This document shows positions 2 through 7,456 of a stretch of 7,456 nucleotides of DNA, in pieces. Under the pieces are notes generated by a model. It made no database searches and was not told where the DNA came from. It was given only the letters and a program-made list of their open reading frames with translations. Position numbers and translations under genes: made by a program. The DNA is taken from contig JAFGUL010000037.1 in assembly GCA_016938535.1 (NCBI GenBank), positions 1-7,456 of the forward strand, given 5' to 3'. The stretch's first letter is position 1. Each line of letters begins with the position of its first letter. Origin of the DNA: Candidatus Delongbacteria bacterium (GTDB taxonomy: Bacteria; Delongbacteria; UBA4055).

Positions 2-1012
2 ACGATAGTTGACGGCGGACTTTCATGGACATATTCTCCTCAGGACCCTTCGCAGTCCCCTCCGTTCGGTTCTGTAAGCGAGATACTGAAAAATACTCAA
101 ACAGAATTCTGGCATATAATTTTAAGTGAACCTGAAGAATTTGACCCTATAAATGAAACTGAGTTCATGAGGCTGAGCAGCATTACAGCGGCAGAAGAAG
201 ATTCGTCTCTGGGAATGAGTGCGTCCACAGTAACAGATTCCGGAAGGATAACACCGGGAACAGGCACTGACGGTCCCAGGGTCATAAATTTTGCGCCTTT
301 ATTGAATCTGGAGCTTCTTCCGGTTAACGATCTAGTAAAAGATCTTCTGAAAATTTGTGAAAATAAATTCAGTACTCCTGTTGAGATAGAGTTCGCGATC
401 ACTGTTTCAGGTGAAGGATATAATGCCGAAGGCAGGTTCGGGCTTCTCCAGGTCAGACCTATGGTCGTTTCTGATGCAAAGATCGAGATATCTGAAAATG
501 AGTCAGGCGATCCTGATAACATCGTGACTACAGAGTACGCTCTAGGGAACGGAATGTCGGACGAAATAACTGATATTTTATATGTAAAACCCGACAGGTT
601 TGATGCCAGGAATACTAAAAAGATAGCCTCAGAGATAGGCAAATTCAATTCGATGCTGACGGAGATGAACAGGAAATACATACTCATCGGCTTCGGAAGG
701 TGGGGAAGTTCCGATCACTGGCTGGGTATACCTGTAGACTGGGGGCAGATATCAAATGTACATACTATTATTGAGTCCGGACTGCCTAATATGAACGTTG
801 AACTGAGCCAGGGGTCTCATTTTTTCCATAATATGACCAGCTTTGGAGTCAACTATCTTTCAGTACCTTGCTACTACGAGCGTGAGATCAACTGGGAAAA
901 ATTAAATAAAATGAAGCTCATAAAAGAAAGCGAAAATGTGGCATGGGTCAGATCATCCGGACCTGTTTTGATCAAAGTCGACGGAAGAACAGGAAAGGGT
1001 ATAATAAAATAA
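2..1012 (+). CDS. PEP/pyruvate-binding (PPDK N-terminal, ATP-grasp) family protein, C-terminal part only
   Basis: The frame is open from base 2 to the TAA at 1010-1012 (336 residues), so the 5' end lies outside the window. The ATG at 167 is an internal Met, because residues before it align with the family. The fragment opens with TIVDGG, matching the second half of the GLGKTIVD loop in the gene at 5162. It continues to the end of the ATP-grasp fold: PVEIEF (Glu at about residue 130) and LLQVRP (150-153), equivalent to the DIEW...LQARP signature of PEP synthase and PPDK. An uncharacterised domain follows with GFGRWGSS (about 230-237), SQGSHFF (about 269-275) and a VDGRTGKGII tail. No phosphohistidine swivel domain or TIM barrel follows, unlike true PEP synthase. 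By alignment with the 5162 gene about 650 residues are missing, giving a full length near 990. The substrate is unknown. It is probably co-transcribed with the next gene, 16 bases downstream. Confidence 0.85.
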   Translation, partial: TIVDGGLSWTYSPQDPSQSPPFGSVSEILKNTQTEFWHIILSEPEEFDPINETEFMRLSSITAAEEDSSLGMSASTVTDSGRITPGTGTDGPRVINFAPLLNLELLPVNDLVKDLLKICENKFSTPVEIEFAITVSGEGYNAEGRFGLLQVRPMVVSDAKIEISENESGDPDNIVTTEYALGNGMSDEITDILYVKPDRFDARNTKKIASEIGKFNSMLTEMNRKYILIGFGRWGSSDHWLGIPVDWGQISNVHTIIESGLPNMNVELSQGSHFFHNMTSFGVNYLSVPCYYEREINWEKLNKMKLIKESENVAWVRSSGPVLIKVDGRTGKGIIK

Positions 1013-1028: not shown

Positions 1029-4000
1029 ATGGGTAACAAGGAATCACTCGGAAAATTGATAAAGGATCTTCGCGAAAGGGCGAAAGAAATAAAGTGCATT
1101 TATCAGGTGCAGGAACTCCTCAACGATCAGAGTCTGAGTCTGGAAGATGTATGTATGAGGATAATAAAGATACTTCCGCTGGGTTTTCAATATCCCGACG
1201 TATGTACTTCTCAAATCATTCTGTCAGGGAAGAAATATTATGACAGGAGTTTTCCTGAAACTGAATGGGAATTATCATCGACGATCAGATCACGGGATGA
1301 AAAGATCGGTTCTATTGTCGTTTATTATACTGAAGAAAGACCTTTGGAAGATGAAGGCCCTTTTTTAAAAGACGAAAGGAAGCTTCTTGATTCTATAGCT
1401 GACCAGTTCGCGATGTATCTTCTTCACATACAGCTTAAATCTGTTTTTGAAGAAGGTCAGATCAGAATAAAAGAGAAAAAAAGCGAATGGTGGGTCATAC
1501 TTGATCTGCTTAAAAGGACCGATCCGAGGCTTCTTGTAAATATTGCCCAGAAAATGCTTAACTATCTATGCCTGAGCGGAATAACTGAAGCCGAGAAATA
1601 CCTTGAGGAATTCAATCCTGCTTTCAAAAAGAAGACAGAGCTGTTCAAAGAAAGCAATTTTCCTCTGGCCGTCGGCGAAACGATCGATGTGATAGACAAG
1701 AGCAGCCATGTTTTCGATATAGCTTCAAGACATATAAGCGAACAGGAGATACTGGAGAGTATACAGAAATGGATCAAGGAAGACCGCTCCGGTTTCATGG
1801 TAAATATTCTCGAGAACACCAGTTCATCTCTATCAGATATATCGAACGCGATCGAACGATATCATCATCTTTCGGGACAGGGTCTTGAACTTTCAAAGCC
1901 CAGAGCAAAAAGCTTCAGGGTGGCTCTTACCAGAAGGATCCTGACAGATCAGCCCTCATTTATAAGCATAGCTAAAGAACATGTCAGAGTAGATGATTTC
2001 AACGGTCTTATGAAGAACATAATCCATCCGTTGAAAAGCCACGGAAAGATAGGCGGAAAAAGCAGCGGGTTATTTCTGGCGGAACATATACTCGCGAACT
2101 CGGTCGAGGACGAAGATCTGAGATCAAGAGTAAGATTTCCAAGATCATGGTACATTACTTCAGACGGGCTTCTGGAGTTCATGAATTACAACAGTCTGCA
2201 GGATATAGTTGAGCAGAAATACAAGGAAATAAGCCAGATCAGGCAGGAATATCCTTATATCATTCAGGTTTTTAAGAATTCAGCATTCCCGCCGGACATG
2301 ATAAAAGGTCTGACACTCGCACTTGACGACCTTGGAGAAAATCCGCTGATAGTAAGGAGCTCAAGTCTGCTGGAAGACAGATTCGGTACAAGCTTTGCGG
2401 GTAAATACAAAAGTCTTTTCATCACGAATACGGGAACAAGGGAAGAAAGGCTTCAGCAGCTAACCGGAGCGATAGCGGAGATCTACGCATCGACTTTCGG
2501 CCCGGACCCCATTGAGTACAGAGAGGAGCATATGCTTCTCGACTATCTTGAGGAAATGGGTATAATAATACAGGAAGTGGTAGGTAACAGGATAGGTCAC
2601 TATTTTATGCCGTCTTTTGCAGGGGTCGCTTTCGGAAAGAACGAATACAGATGGTCATCAAGACTGGAAAGGAACGACGGTCTTGTCAGAATGGTGCCGG
2701 GTCTGGGAACTCGGGCTGTTGACAGGATTTCTGATGATTATCCGGTAATGATATCTCCGGGGAAACCCGATATAATGGTAAATTCTTCCACCGAAGAAAA
2801 GATAAGGTACGCACCGAGATGTGCGGATGTAATAAATCTGAAAAAGTCGAATTTTGAAACAGTTGAGCTGAAAGAAGTATATGAAAAATACGGAAACAAA
2901 TATCCTATGCTCCAGTACATCGTTTCAGAAGTGGATGACAAGTATTTGAGGATCCCGAAGGCAATAGGGCACGATTATTCGGAAAAGTTCCATATTGTGA
3001 CTTTCGAAGGTCTCATCTCCAAATCCAAAGTCGTTTCAGATATAAAAAAGCTGCTCGACATTTTCAGGGAAAAATACGGGACCGCCGTCGATCTGGAATT
3101 CGCTCATGACGGAAACAATCTTTATATTCTGCAGTGCAGACCTCAGAGCTTTTCTGAAGAGAATCTGCCCGGTGAGCTGCCTGTGAGCACACCGAAAAAA
3201 GATATTCTTTTCTCGACAGACAAACACATCTCCAACGGTTATGTCACAGATATTACCCACATAGTATATGTTGATCCCGATGAATATTCGAAAGTACCTT
3301 CATACAATGATCTTCTAAAAGTCGGCACGATCGTAGGAAGGCTGAACAAGATTTTGCCTAAAAGACAGTTCATTCTGATGGGTCCGGGAAGATGGGGGAG
3401 CAGAGGCGATATTAAACTTGGTGTTAATGTCACTTATTCGGATATTAATAATTCTGCCGCGATTATAGAAATAGCCAAGAAAAAAGACCAGTATATACCG
3501 GAGCTGTCTTTCGGAACCCATTTTTTTCAGGACCTGGTCGAGGCTAATATTAAATATATTCCGCTGTATCCGGATGACAGGGAGTCGTTCTTCAACGAGA
3601 AGTTCATAAACAGATCAAAAAATCATCTGCCTGACGTTCTCCCTGAGTTCTCGGATATAGAGAAAGTAGTCAGGATCATTGACATTGCGGAGGCTACGGA
3701 CGGCAGGAACATTCAGATATTTATGAATGCTGACGAGCAGAAGGCGATGGCTGTTTTCAGTGATCCGCTTGGAAGGATTTCACTGAAAAGGAAAAATTCT
3801 GCTCATGAATTTAAAAAGAACAGGACAGACCTGCATTGGAAGTGGAGGTTCAATTATGCACAGGAAATAGCAATGTCGCTCGATCCTGAGAGGTTCGGTG
3901 TAAAAGCGTTCTATCTTTTCGGCAGCGTCAAGAACGCAACTGCCGGTGCCATGAGCGATATTGATATAATCCTGCATTTCACGGGCGATGAAGGGCAGAA

Positions 4001-4205
4001 GAGAGATCTTGAAAACTGGCTTGAAGGCTGGGATCAGTGCCTCACTAGAGTAAATTATTTTAATACAGGTCATAAAGTCGATAAACTGCTGGATGTTCAT
4101 TATATAAGTGACACGGATATAAAAAATAAAACTTCTTATGCCATAAAGATAGGAGCTCTGACAGATCCCGCAAGACAGCTACAGATGAAGCCTGTCAGAA
4201 AATGA
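1029..4205 (+). CDS. GAF / PEP-pyruvate-binding ATP-grasp / nucleotidyltransferase multidomain protein
   Basis: Complete 1058-residue protein. Residues 1-145 resemble the GAF-type sensor of histidine kinases (FQYPDVC, IGSIVVYY, DEGPFLKDERKLLD). Residues 146-335 form a helical region. Residues 335-710 are a PPDK N-terminal ATP-grasp module: glycine loop IGGKSSG (341-347, Lys344), VRSSSLLEDRFGTSFAG (442-458), IIQEVVG (513-519), GLGTRAVD (558-565), DLEF (Glu690) and LQCRP (701-705). Residues 735-912 are the domain shared with the preceding gene, with GPGRWGS (785-791) and FGTHFF (828-833, His831). Residues 935-1050 are a minimal nucleotidyltransferase: FGS (964-966), ten residues, then DID (977-979), with Asp1022 a possible third carboxylate. 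There is no PEP-utilising swivel His motif and no TIM barrel. No signal peptide or membrane segment is seen, so it is probably cytoplasmic. The ATG at 1029 has only a weak A-rich site upstream (AGAGAAAA). Function is inferred as an ATP-using signalling enzyme; the reaction is unknown. Confidence 0.92.
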   Translation: MGNKESLGKLIKDLRERAKEIKCIYQVQELLNDQSLSLEDVCMRIIKILPLGFQYPDVCTSQIILSGKKYYDRSFPETEWELSSTIRSRDEKIGSIVVYYTEERPLEDEGPFLKDERKLLDSIADQFAMYLLHIQLKSVFEEGQIRIKEKKSEWWVILDLLKRTDPRLLVNIAQKMLNYLCLSGITEAEKYLEEFNPAFKKKTELFKESNFPLAVGETIDVIDKSSHVFDIASRHISEQEILESIQKWIKEDRSGFMVNILENTSSSLSDISNAIERYHHLSGQGLELSKPRAKSFRVALTRRILTDQPSFISIAKEHVRVDDFNGLMKNIIHPLKSHGKIGGKSSGLFLAEHILANSVEDEDLRSRVRFPRSWYITSDGLLEFMNYNSLQDIVEQKYKEISQIRQEYPYIIQVFKNSAFPPDMIKGLTLALDDLGENPLIVRSSSLLEDRFGTSFAGKYKSLFITNTGTREERLQQLTGAIAEIYASTFGPDPIEYREEHMLLDYLEEMGIIIQEVVGNRIGHYFMPSFAGVAFGKNEYRWSSRLERNDGLVRMVPGLGTRAVDRISDDYPVMISPGKPDIMVNSSTEEKIRYAPRCADVINLKKSNFETVELKEVYEKYGNKYPMLQYIVSEVDDKYLRIPKAIGHDYSEKFHIVTFEGLISKSKVVSDIKKLLDIFREKYGTAVDLEFAHDGNNLYILQCRPQSFSEENLPGELPVSTPKKDILFSTDKHISNGYVTDITHIVYVDPDEYSKVPSYNDLLKVGTIVGRLNKILPKRQFILMGPGRWGSRGDIKLGVNVTYSDINNSAAIIEIAKKKDQYIPELSFGTHFFQDLVEANIKYIPLYPDDRESFFNEKFINRSKNHLPDVLPEFSDIEKVVRIIDIAEATDGRNIQIFMNADEQKAMAVFSDPLGRISLKRKNSAHEFKKNRTDLHWKWRFNYAQEIAMSLDPERFGVKAFYLFGSVKNATAGAMSDIDIILHFTGDEGQKRDLENWLEGWDQCLTRVNYFNTGHKVDKLLDVHYISDTDIKNKTSYAIKIGALTDPARQLQMKPVRK

Positions 4206-5067
4206 TCCTTTCGGCACCCTCTGGATCATCGAGGTCGAACAGCACCATAGCGAGTTCCTTTCCGTCATGAGCAGCAGAGAACATTTCCGTGATTCCTATC
4301 CTGTCTTTCCATTGTCCCGTCAGCCTCGGGGATTCATGAATATGTCCGTGAAGTGTAAGGTGAGGCTGTCTTTCTTCAATAAATTCTCTGATGGCAATAC
4401 TTCCCACATTTACATCAAGCGGTACGGAATCAAAGTACCTTCCGTCAAGATCAGCCCTGTCAAGATTTGTTTTGTAAGGCGGCGAGTGGAAGAGAACAAC
4501 TGAATCTGAGATATTTTCTTTGCCGAACAGTAAATCCAGATCTTTTCTTATCGTTGAGTACTTAACAAGATTAGGCTCAATGTCATAGGATCTTCTTCCT
4601 TCCTCCGGCGATATGCATCCCGGGTCTGTAAATCTCGACACATCATATTTCTCCCAGTCCTTCAGCAGAAAAGGGGTTGGCGGAATGAAAGAATATCCGA
4701 ATATTTTCCTGCCGTTAAAATCATATCTCCTGTTGTGCATATATTCCCAGAGACCTTCTTTCTGAGCGTCAAGTATATCTTCTTCGAAAACCTTTCCGTC
4801 ATCATTTCCGAGTATAAGGAAAATTTTAGGGTAGTTTTCTTTAAGTTTTTTCTTCATCGACCTGAATCCCTTCAGTATTACATTGTTGTAAAAATATTCC
4901 GGGTTCTCATGCCTGTATGTTGACGGCAGTATGTCTCCGCCGATAAAAACCGCCTCGGGTTCAGCAGACGTTATCTCTCCGAACAATTTATTGTACCGGG
5001 ATTTACTTCCGTGCAGATCGCTAACAAATACTGATCTTATCATGGTCGAAAAATAATTGATTTTCAT
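4195..5067 (-). CDS. Calcineurin-like metallophosphoesterase
   Basis: A 290-residue, probably cytoplasmic, metal-dependent phosphoesterase. The family's metal-binding motifs appear in order: SDLHG (Asp17, His19), GGD (43-45), GNDD (87-90), LFHSPP (His194) and HGHIH (240-244). The second block reads GND where many members have GNH, so the proton-donor His is absent; this is known in some branches of the superfamily. PPTPF followed by KDWEKYD resembles an Icc-related group of predicted phosphoesterases. The C terminus is a short strand typical of the fold's end (MVLFDLDD). Two starts are possible: ATG at 5067, or the internal ATG at 5043 (Met9, MIRSVFVSDLHG), which sits at the usual distance before the first motif. 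Neither has a clear Shine-Dalgarno. The stop overlaps the end of the opposite-strand gene by 11 bases. The natural substrate cannot be told from sequence. Confidence 0.9.
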   Translation of the reverse strand: MKINYFSTMIRSVFVSDLHGSKSRYNKLFGEITSAEPEAVFIGGDILPSTYRHENPEYFYNNVILKGFRSMKKKLKENYPKIFLILGNDDGKVFEEDILDAQKEGLWEYMHNRRYDFNGRKIFGYSFIPPTPFLLKDWEKYDVSRFTDPGCISPEEGRRSYDIEPNLVKYSTIRKDLDLLFGKENISDSVVLFHSPPYKTNLDRADLDGRYFDSVPLDVNVGSIAIREFIEERQPHLTLHGHIHESPRLTGQWKDRIGITEMFSAAHDGKELAMVLFDLDDPEGAERIIF

Positions 5068-5161: not shown

Positions 5162-7456
5162 GTGAAATTTGAAAGATCAGAACCGGATAAGATGATATTC
5201 AGCGATGTAGAACAGGTGTCTTTTGAAAAACTGATGTCGAGAAGAATATCTGAAATCCTTTTAATCTGTAATGAATATGACGCTTTTATGCTTGAGGAGG
5301 ACGGAAGAATAGAAGAAAGAGTATTTAACGAGTACTCATCTTTACACCTCAGGTTCCCTCCGCATTTCAACAGAGCAGATTCATACAGATCAGCACTTAC
5401 GCTTATGAAGAAAAAGAATTTTGACCTTGTTATTACTATTCACAACAGCGGGTCGTGGAACGCTTTTAAGATAAATTCGGACTTAAAAAAAATATTTCCG
5501 GAAAAACCTATGGTCGTTCTTGCGCCGTTCTCGAGAAAGATACTGACTTTGAGCGACATTGAGGTAAAGCATGCTTCCTCGGATTATATCTTTTCCTGGT
5601 TAGGCGACATGGGGATAATGGTCGCCATAATAAAATTGATCGAAGACAAAATGAATGCCGATGACGATATATCAACAGCCGGCGTTCAGGTAATTATATT
5701 AGTTGAAGACTCGATCAGGTATTATTCGAGTTATCTGCCGGTTCTTTATGAGACCATTTTCGAACAGACCCTGCATGTGATGAGCGAAGACCTGAATGAC
5801 CACCAGAAGAATCTTAGAATGAGAGGGAGGCCTAAAATACTTCTTGCCACCAATTACGAGCAGGCCCTTTCTCTGTACAAAAAATATAAAAAGAACGTTC
5901 TGGGAGTAATAACCGATGTTGAATACGGGAAAAATTCCAGTATGGACAGATCAGCAGGTTTCAGGCTTTGCGGCCAGATACGCAAATATGACAGGGATAT
6001 TCCGCTTCTCGTTCAGTCATCGATTGAGCAGAACAGGAAAAAGGCCGAAAAGTATAACGCGGGGTTCATAAACAAACAGTCCGAAACACTGCTGAACAAA
6101 ATAGGTTCTTTCGTTAAGGTGAATTTCGGTTTCGGTGAATTCAGATTTATTGATACGAAAACTGGGAAGGTCATAGTAACCGCATCTAATCTGAGAGAGC
6201 TTCATCTTGCCTTAAAGAGCGTACCCGGCGAAACTATAAAATATCATGCGTCGAGAAATCATTTTTCAAAATGGCTGAGAGCCAGAACGCTTTTTCAGCT
6301 CGCGGACATATTAAAACCGCAGAAGATAGAGAATTTCGATAATATGGAAGATCTGAGAAATTATCTTGTTGAGGTGATAAGAGTTTTCAGAAAAAGCAGC
6401 GCAAAGGGAATAATCGCACAATTCAGCAGAGAAAATTTCGACGAGCTGTCCGGATTCGCCAGGATAGGACAGGGATCTATCGGTGGTAAGGCCAGAGGCC
6501 TCGCTTTCATGGACAGCGTGCTTAAAAAGAAACGGAAAAGTTATTCCTATTACGGACTGGAGATATCCATTCCGCAGACAGTTGTTCTTGCGACAGACGT
6601 ATTCAATGAATTCATGACGGATAATTTACTATATGATACTGCATATTCGGATGCTAGCGATGCGGCTATAATGAAAAAGTTCCTGGAATGTGATCTGCCG
6701 GAATGGGTAAAAGAGAAGCTGATGAAATTTCTCTCGAGCAATAATTATCCCCTGGCAGTAAGATCTTCCAGCCTTCTTGAAGATTCTTATTATCAGCCCT
6801 TCGCAGGAATTTATGCTACATATATGATCCCAAACAATTCCAGAGATACAGGCAAAAGGCTCAAAGACCTTACTGATGCGGTGAAATGCGTTTATGCTTC
6901 CACTTTTTATGAGGGTGCAAAAAAATACCTTAAGGCAACGAAGAATGTGATTGAAGAAGAGAAAATGGCTGTTATCATTCAGAGGATATCCGGCACTAAA
7001 CACGGCAGCCGGTTTTACCCTACATTTTCAGGTGTTGCAAGATCTATTAATGACTATCCGATCGGATACGAAAAGCACGATATAAGCATCGCGAACATTG
7101 CCGCAGGATTAGGAAAGACTATCGTTGACAGTGAAATATCATTAAGATTCTCACCCTCATCACCTAATAATGTTATACAGTTCTCATCAGCAGAATTCGC
7201 CCTCAAATATTCTCAAAAACATTTTTACGCGCTTAATCTCAGATCGATGTCGTTTAAGCCTGATATAAACGAGAGCAGGAATCTTTTAAAGCTGGATGTT
7301 TATGACGGTGTTAATGACGGTGCTTTCGATAATATTGTCTCGTCCTACGATCACGCCAGCAATGTAATTAGAGATACTTATGACCATCCGGGTAGCAAAA
7401 TACTGACTTTTGCCAACATACTTAAAAGAGAGACTTTTCCGCTCAGCACGATACTT
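5162..7456 (+). CDS. Tandem-receiver PEP/pyruvate-binding (PPDK N-terminal) family protein, N-terminal part
   Basis: The frame is open from GTG 5162 to the window end (765 codons), so the 3' end is missing; about 990 residues are expected. Residues 28-165 are a receiver-like domain with the family block YDAFMLEEDGRI (39-50). It lacks the phosphoacceptor: FDLVITIHNSG (87-97) has Ile/His where Asp is expected. Residues 175-320 are a second receiver that looks intact: VEDS (Asp183), VITD (Asp252), QSS (Ser286/287) and NKQ (Lys305), with an extra helical stretch after the first strand. Residues 430-765 are the ATP-grasp module: IGGKARG (440-446, Lys443), VRSSSLLEDSYYQPFAG (533-549), IIQRISGTKHGSRFYP (605-620) and GLGKT (649-653). 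The layout matches a receiver plus PPDK-like family I recall from Bacteroidota; its biochemical role is uncharacterised to my knowledge. The ATG at 5192 is an alternative start. A phosphorylation-controlled ATP-dependent enzyme is inferred. Confidence 0.87.
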   Translation, partial: MKFERSEPDKMIFSDVEQVSFEKLMSRRISEILLICNEYDAFMLEEDGRIEERVFNEYSSLHLRFPPHFNRADSYRSALTLMKKKNFDLVITIHNSGSWNAFKINSDLKKIFPEKPMVVLAPFSRKILTLSDIEVKHASSDYIFSWLGDMGIMVAIIKLIEDKMNADDDISTAGVQVIILVEDSIRYYSSYLPVLYETIFEQTLHVMSEDLNDHQKNLRMRGRPKILLATNYEQALSLYKKYKKNVLGVITDVEYGKNSSMDRSAGFRLCGQIRKYDRDIPLLVQSSIEQNRKKAEKYNAGFINKQSETLLNKIGSFVKVNFGFGEFRFIDTKTGKVIVTASNLRELHLALKSVPGETIKYHASRNHFSKWLRARTLFQLADILKPQKIENFDNMEDLRNYLVEVIRVFRKSSAKGIIAQFSRENFDELSGFARIGQGSIGGKARGLAFMDSVLKKKRKSYSYYGLEISIPQTVVLATDVFNEFMTDNLLYDTAYSDASDAAIMKKFLECDLPEWVKEKLMKFLSSNNYPLAVRSSSLLEDSYYQPFAGIYATYMIPNNSRDTGKRLKDLTDAVKCVYASTFYEGAKKYLKATKNVIEEEKMAVIIQRISGTKHGSRFYPTFSGVARSINDYPIGYEKHDISIANIAAGLGKTIVDSEISLRFSPSSPNNVIQFSSAEFALKYSQKHFYALNLRSMSFKPDINESRNLLKLDVYDGVNDGAFDNIVSSYDHASNVIRDTYDHPGSKILTFANILKRETFPLSTIL

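Follow-up and report, generated by a model that had tools for sequence, protein, structure and literature searches.

The window, a stretch of 7,456 nucleotides of a Candidatus Delongbacteria contig (JAFGUL010000037.1, assembly GCA_016938535.1), carries an open reading frame (ORF) whose product belongs to a real and widespread protein family, derived from pyruvate, phosphate dikinase (PPDK) and linked to glutamate dehydrogenase (GDH). Domain anatomy and GDH linkage are firm; the function is one that we infer. The preferred reading, held with moderate confidence, is a regulatory kinase composed of the ATP-grasp and histidine-swivel halves of PPDK or phosphoenolpyruvate (PEP) synthase, lacking the PEP/pyruvate barrel and most likely targeting the clustered GDH. 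Of this, the domains, conserved residues, recurrent linkage and a gene fusion are supported by the analysis. The GDH-linked, PPDK-derived family is undescribed in the literature searched: no description was found in open-access sources, where absence is no proof, and VadK is closest.

A same-strand GDH gene lies at most 3.2 kb upstream of the gene in 57 of 72 loci, and is absent from five (L083, L088, L089, L090, L093); in ten the available sequence ends too early to judge. Counts of neighbours cover 72 of 75 loci, L045-L047 being omitted as repeats of L017, L020 and L011. The examined loci are related to one another to varying degrees, so the linkages are not independent events. Among the named loci of the first search (Delongbacteria, Calditrichota, Melioribacteraceae, Acidobacteria, Thermoanaerobaculia, Eisenbacteria and others) GDH is present in 17/17 judgeable ones, 4/21 having too little sequence. 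The protein of 428 residues is a GDH by similarity. Sixteen canonical PPDK genes, used as a control, have no GDH nearby on their contigs, some of which are short; only that of G009 shares a contig with GDH, about 700 kb apart. Since the gene stands repeatedly shortly 3' of a GDH gene, its product probably controls glutamate synthesis or breakdown.

The N-terminus of the ORF product has a GAF fold, and a PPDK_N-type ATP-grasp domain follows with its catalytic residues. The C-terminal nucleotidyltransferase scores 22.7 bits against the NTP_transf_2 profile (cut-off 21), keeps its GS...DxD...D residues in 61-63 of 64 sequences and is matched by Foldseek to 2rff, 7bxo and 8xeo (probability 0.95-0.98, E 0.11-0.23); MNT antitoxins are among its structural neighbours. 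The PEP/pyruvate TIM barrel (PEP-utilizers_C) has no Pfam match in the ORF at E<=1. The nucleotidyltransferase comes directly after the swivel-like domain, and neither profiles nor structure model place an acceptor domain of RIF-binding or TIM-barrel type between them. A preliminary description of the ORF had reported a GAF domain, complete ATP-grasp signatures, a minimal nucleotidyltransferase and no visible TIM barrel; profiles, conserved residues and fold matches agree with it.

Residues 716-915, given there as an unknown domain without a visible swivel, are likely a diverged swivel domain. Their structure model is of high score (predicted local distance difference test, pLDDT, 92.2; predicted template modelling score, pTM, 0.90). 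Structure comparison, which also speaks for a swivel, has rifampin phosphotransferase (RPH) as best match, PEP synthase following within about 1 Z. Many top fold matches presumably share the swivelling fold (SCOP c.8). The 50 fold-match rows are mixed and weak, including cellulase-labelled, replisome, DNA polymerase and radical SAM chains that look unrelated to swivels. Foldseek with this segment alone gives no match at E<=0.001, and profile-profile comparison with 16 PPDKs and 11 swivel segments, local and global, gives no signal. The phosphohistidine motif GG.TSH is absent, SFGTHFF standing in its place in the alignment; all 16 canonical PPDKs compared have GGMTSH or GGLTSH. Model and fold matches speak for a diverged swivel; the profile comparisons and the search with the segment alone give no significant match. 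His831 is invariant (64/64 and 115/115 aligned rows, 120/120 paralogues), as is GRWG in 115/115 rows; W789 is kept in 118/120 paralogues. The domain alignment consists of the window and 114 of 154 candidate rows, the omitted rows being mostly, with at least one exception, repeats of the same gene.

An inactive scaffold or pseudokinase, binding nucleotide and tuning GDH allosterically without covalent chemistry, would suit the divergence of the swivel motif from PPDK and the fact that GDH belongs to the classical allosteric enzymes. However, the checked ATP-grasp residues and His831 are invariant, which suggests retained chemistry, and such a scaffold is improbable.

An ATP-grasp domain of the PPDK type transfers phosphate to a histidine of the swivel (see also PMC12167813). 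VadK (Rv1127c) shows that a relative of PPDK can autophosphorylate even though the pyruvate domain is missing; it is reported to interact with enzymes whose genes lie near its own and to regulate them (PMC13400623). It combines an ATP-binding with a phosphohistidine domain, as the ORF protein probably does. Like that protein it lacks the pyruvate-binding domain of PPDK and is encoded near metabolic enzymes, in its case those with which it is reported to interact. It differs in that the main text of the paper on it mentions no GAF or nucleotidyltransferase, and its enzymes are those of the methylcitrate cycle, not GDH; the ORF protein, in turn, lacks the usual swivel motif. Of the VadK-type features, the ATP part is present and the barrel unmatched in the ORF protein, and the phosphohistidine domain is seen through weak fold matches only.

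For the preferred regulatory kinase we infer autophosphorylation, ligand, target, direction of control and the roles of the nucleotidyltransferase and phosphoesterase. By analogy with VadK, His831 in the swivel-like domain would receive a phosphate from ATP. Kinase activity would be set by the GAF domain through a small ligand, at a guess one reporting nitrogen or carbon status. The GDH of the same cluster would be the likeliest target, controlled through binding or phosphoryl transfer. The nucleotidyltransferase, where present, might add a second modification (adenosine or uridine monophosphate, AMP or UMP) to GDH, to the upstream paralogue ORF1 or to its own protein; the convergent phosphoesterase could take off one modification, and ORF1 may be a partner subunit. 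The signalling or different-acceptor role suggested in the preliminary description is thus partly supported: the architecture behind it is confirmed, and the role itself would be tied to GDH. Tentatively, a separate and widespread control of nitrogen assimilation is possible, in which GDH would be covalently switched by a ligand-sensing, PPDK-derived phosphohistidine kinase with its own nucleotidyltransferase, paralogous partner kinase and phosphoesterase; Delongbacteria, Calditrichota, Melioribacteraceae and Acidobacteria would be among the groups that use it.

Ordinary PEP synthase or PPDK is excluded. The order of ATP-grasp and swivel-like domain is the same, but no TIM barrel is found, GG.TSH is absent, GAF and nucleotidyltransferase are added, and 16/20 genomes carrying the gene have a separate normal PPDK besides. 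Named relatives are listed as pyruvate, water dikinase; pyruvate, phosphate dikinase; PEP/pyruvate-binding; nucleotidyltransferase; or hypothetical protein. Those with the ORF architecture probably do not make PEP. A small-molecule dikinase, phosphorylating a glutamate-linked metabolite under allosteric control by GAF with GDH as pathway neighbour, is unlikely. Enzymes of the ATP-grasp and histidine-swivel superfamily do phosphorylate small molecules, as described for HpeHI (PMC12167813) and RPH (PMC4844700), and RPH and PEP synthase are the top structural matches. Unlike RPH and HpeHI, the ORF protein has other accessory domains and no small-molecule acceptor domain was found in it; the GAF sensor, receiver-like paralogue domains and nucleotidyltransferase suit regulation better.

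PtsP (EI-Ntr, nitrogen-related enzyme I) likewise has a GAF sensor on a phosphohistidine enzyme and a link to nitrogen status, and its nitrogen control (PMC4848567) is a parallel for sensing. In the ORF protein ATP-grasp replaces the PEP-binding barrel and the enzyme I domains are absent, with neither PEP-utilizers_C nor PEP-utilisers_N matched by Pfam. An ATP-fed phosphorelay to HPr or another carrier, resembling the nitrogen phosphotransferase system (PTS) and sharing only nitrogen physiology with GDH, is quite improbable: in 18 genomes HPr sits on a contig other than that of the gene, whereas GDH adjoins the gene in nearly all judgeable ones, and HPr also occurs in 7/14 control genomes. GlnE and GlnD are a functional comparison alone, having a nucleotidyltransferase near a key nitrogen enzyme; that of the ORF is of the short MNT-like type. 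PII was found in 10/20 and GlnE in 4/20 genomes carrying the gene; neither was found in G001-G005 (UBP11_UBA4055 and four Delongbacteria), which is weak evidence since the assemblies are drafts. An anti-phage role is rejected: PADLOC matched the nucleotidyltransferase end only (best E 2.1e-6, PDC-S09), and GDH linkage favours metabolism.

Protein P0077 (1634 aa) has ORF1 (53% identity over 574 aa) fused ahead of the ORF architecture; P0078 and P0102 have two PPDK_N stretches each. By match range, 47 matches of one search comprise 18 whole proteins, 12 without nucleotidyltransferase, 12 without GAF and nucleotidyltransferase, and five pieces; 30 of them were taken as loci. A missing end may also mean that the domain has diverged or that the contig stops. 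Among L064-L074, the ten loci that seem to be without the nucleotidyltransferase all have GDH upstream. Of loci without both end domains, L071 has upstream GDH, L089 and L090 do not, and L075 is not judgeable. Variants with a match beginning near aa 143-177 still contain the helical region. As GDH persists in variants, what is tied to it is a core of helical region, ATP-grasp and swivel-like domain.

At E<=1e-150, 8/13 genomes in the phylum of G001 have a match, as do 23/296 in that of G016 (Melioribacteraceae record), 44/199 in that of G019 (Acidobacteria) and 20/79 in that of G009 (Calditrichaeota). At E<=0.001, 7948 of 7999 scored candidates match; many same-length relatives are among the best 120 of them, and those beyond need not carry the full architecture. 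Chance fusion or assembly artefact is ruled out by these same-length relatives. If these proteins do control GDH, they would add a level of regulation where carbon and nitrogen metabolism branch, in phyla that have received little study, and would be an example, beside VadK, of a regulatory histidine kinase made from parts of PPDK.

Table 1. Features of the window and of the related locus L001.
Feature	Position	Strand	Remarks
ORF, 1058 aa	1029..4205	+	GAF - helical region - ATP-grasp (PPDK_N) - swivel-like domain - nucleotidyltransferase
GAF domain, aa 9-144	1053..1460	+	
All-helical region, about aa 150-325	1476..2003	+	Structure model
ATP-grasp nucleotide-binding domain, PEP synthase/PPDK type, aa 340-712	2046..3164	+	Catalytic residues intact
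Probable diverged swivelling beta/beta/alpha domain, aa 716-915	3174..3773	+	Candidate phosphohistidine carrier; model, fold matches, alignment
GRWG motif, aa 787-790	3387..3398	+	
His831	3519..3521	+	Candidate phospho-acceptor, helix start
Minimal nucleotidyltransferase, about aa 930-1050	3816..4178	+	GS...DxD...D; Pfam profile, residues, Foldseek
Upstream paralogue ORF1, C-terminal part	2..1012	+	ATP-grasp end and the swivel-like domain also present in ORF; stops 16 bases short of ORF
ORF1, full copy in L001	8257-9984		
Calcineurin-like metallophosphoesterase	4195..5067	-	Convergent, 11-base overlap with ORF end
Second paralogue ORF3	5162..7456	+	Receiver-like N-terminus (below Pfam cut-off) and ATP-grasp; runs off window

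L001, from bacterium UBP11_UBA4055, is a locus of 96% identity. Its order is GDH, ORF1, ORF homologue, convergent phosphoesterase, receiver-type paralogue, second GDH and another receiver-type paralogue. ORF3, complete in L001, also has the swivel-like domain at its end. The ORF homologue there seems frame-broken near its N-terminus (10001-10243; open frame from 10237, two TGA), perhaps by assembly error. ORF1 is directly upstream in 36/72 loci and, by subtraction, between GDH and the gene in 27/57. A phosphoesterase is found just 3' of the gene in 30/63 judgeable loci, in opposite orientation in 25/30.

Receiver-type paralogues were sampled in 14 regions (13 with a match) and inside other loci. 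They adjoin a GDH of the 459-aa type in 6/11 judgeable loci (convergent in L124), and also in L001, L003, L005, L083 and L095; no GDH adjoins in L122, L123, L126, L127 and L128, and the sequence is cut at L116 and L121. In G007 (L127 584-4809, 5333-8320) the paralogue is convergent to a cluster of HPr, PTS enzyme I, phosphoglucose isomerase-like protein and S-adenosylmethionine (SAM) synthetase, with no adjoining GDH; in G014 HPr lies about 4 kb off on the same contig. Between its receiver and ATP-grasp parts, ORF3 (5162-7456) weakly matches DUF5752 (E 9.3e-5, 22.3 bits, cut-off 23). P0098 (1202 aa) has about 140 extra residues ahead of ATP-grasp, without Pfam match there. L113 and L114 carry giant PPDK_N proteins (1712 and 1905 aa frames) with the swivel motif GGGILSH, each followed by a 754-aa frame, and represent a different PPDK-derived family.
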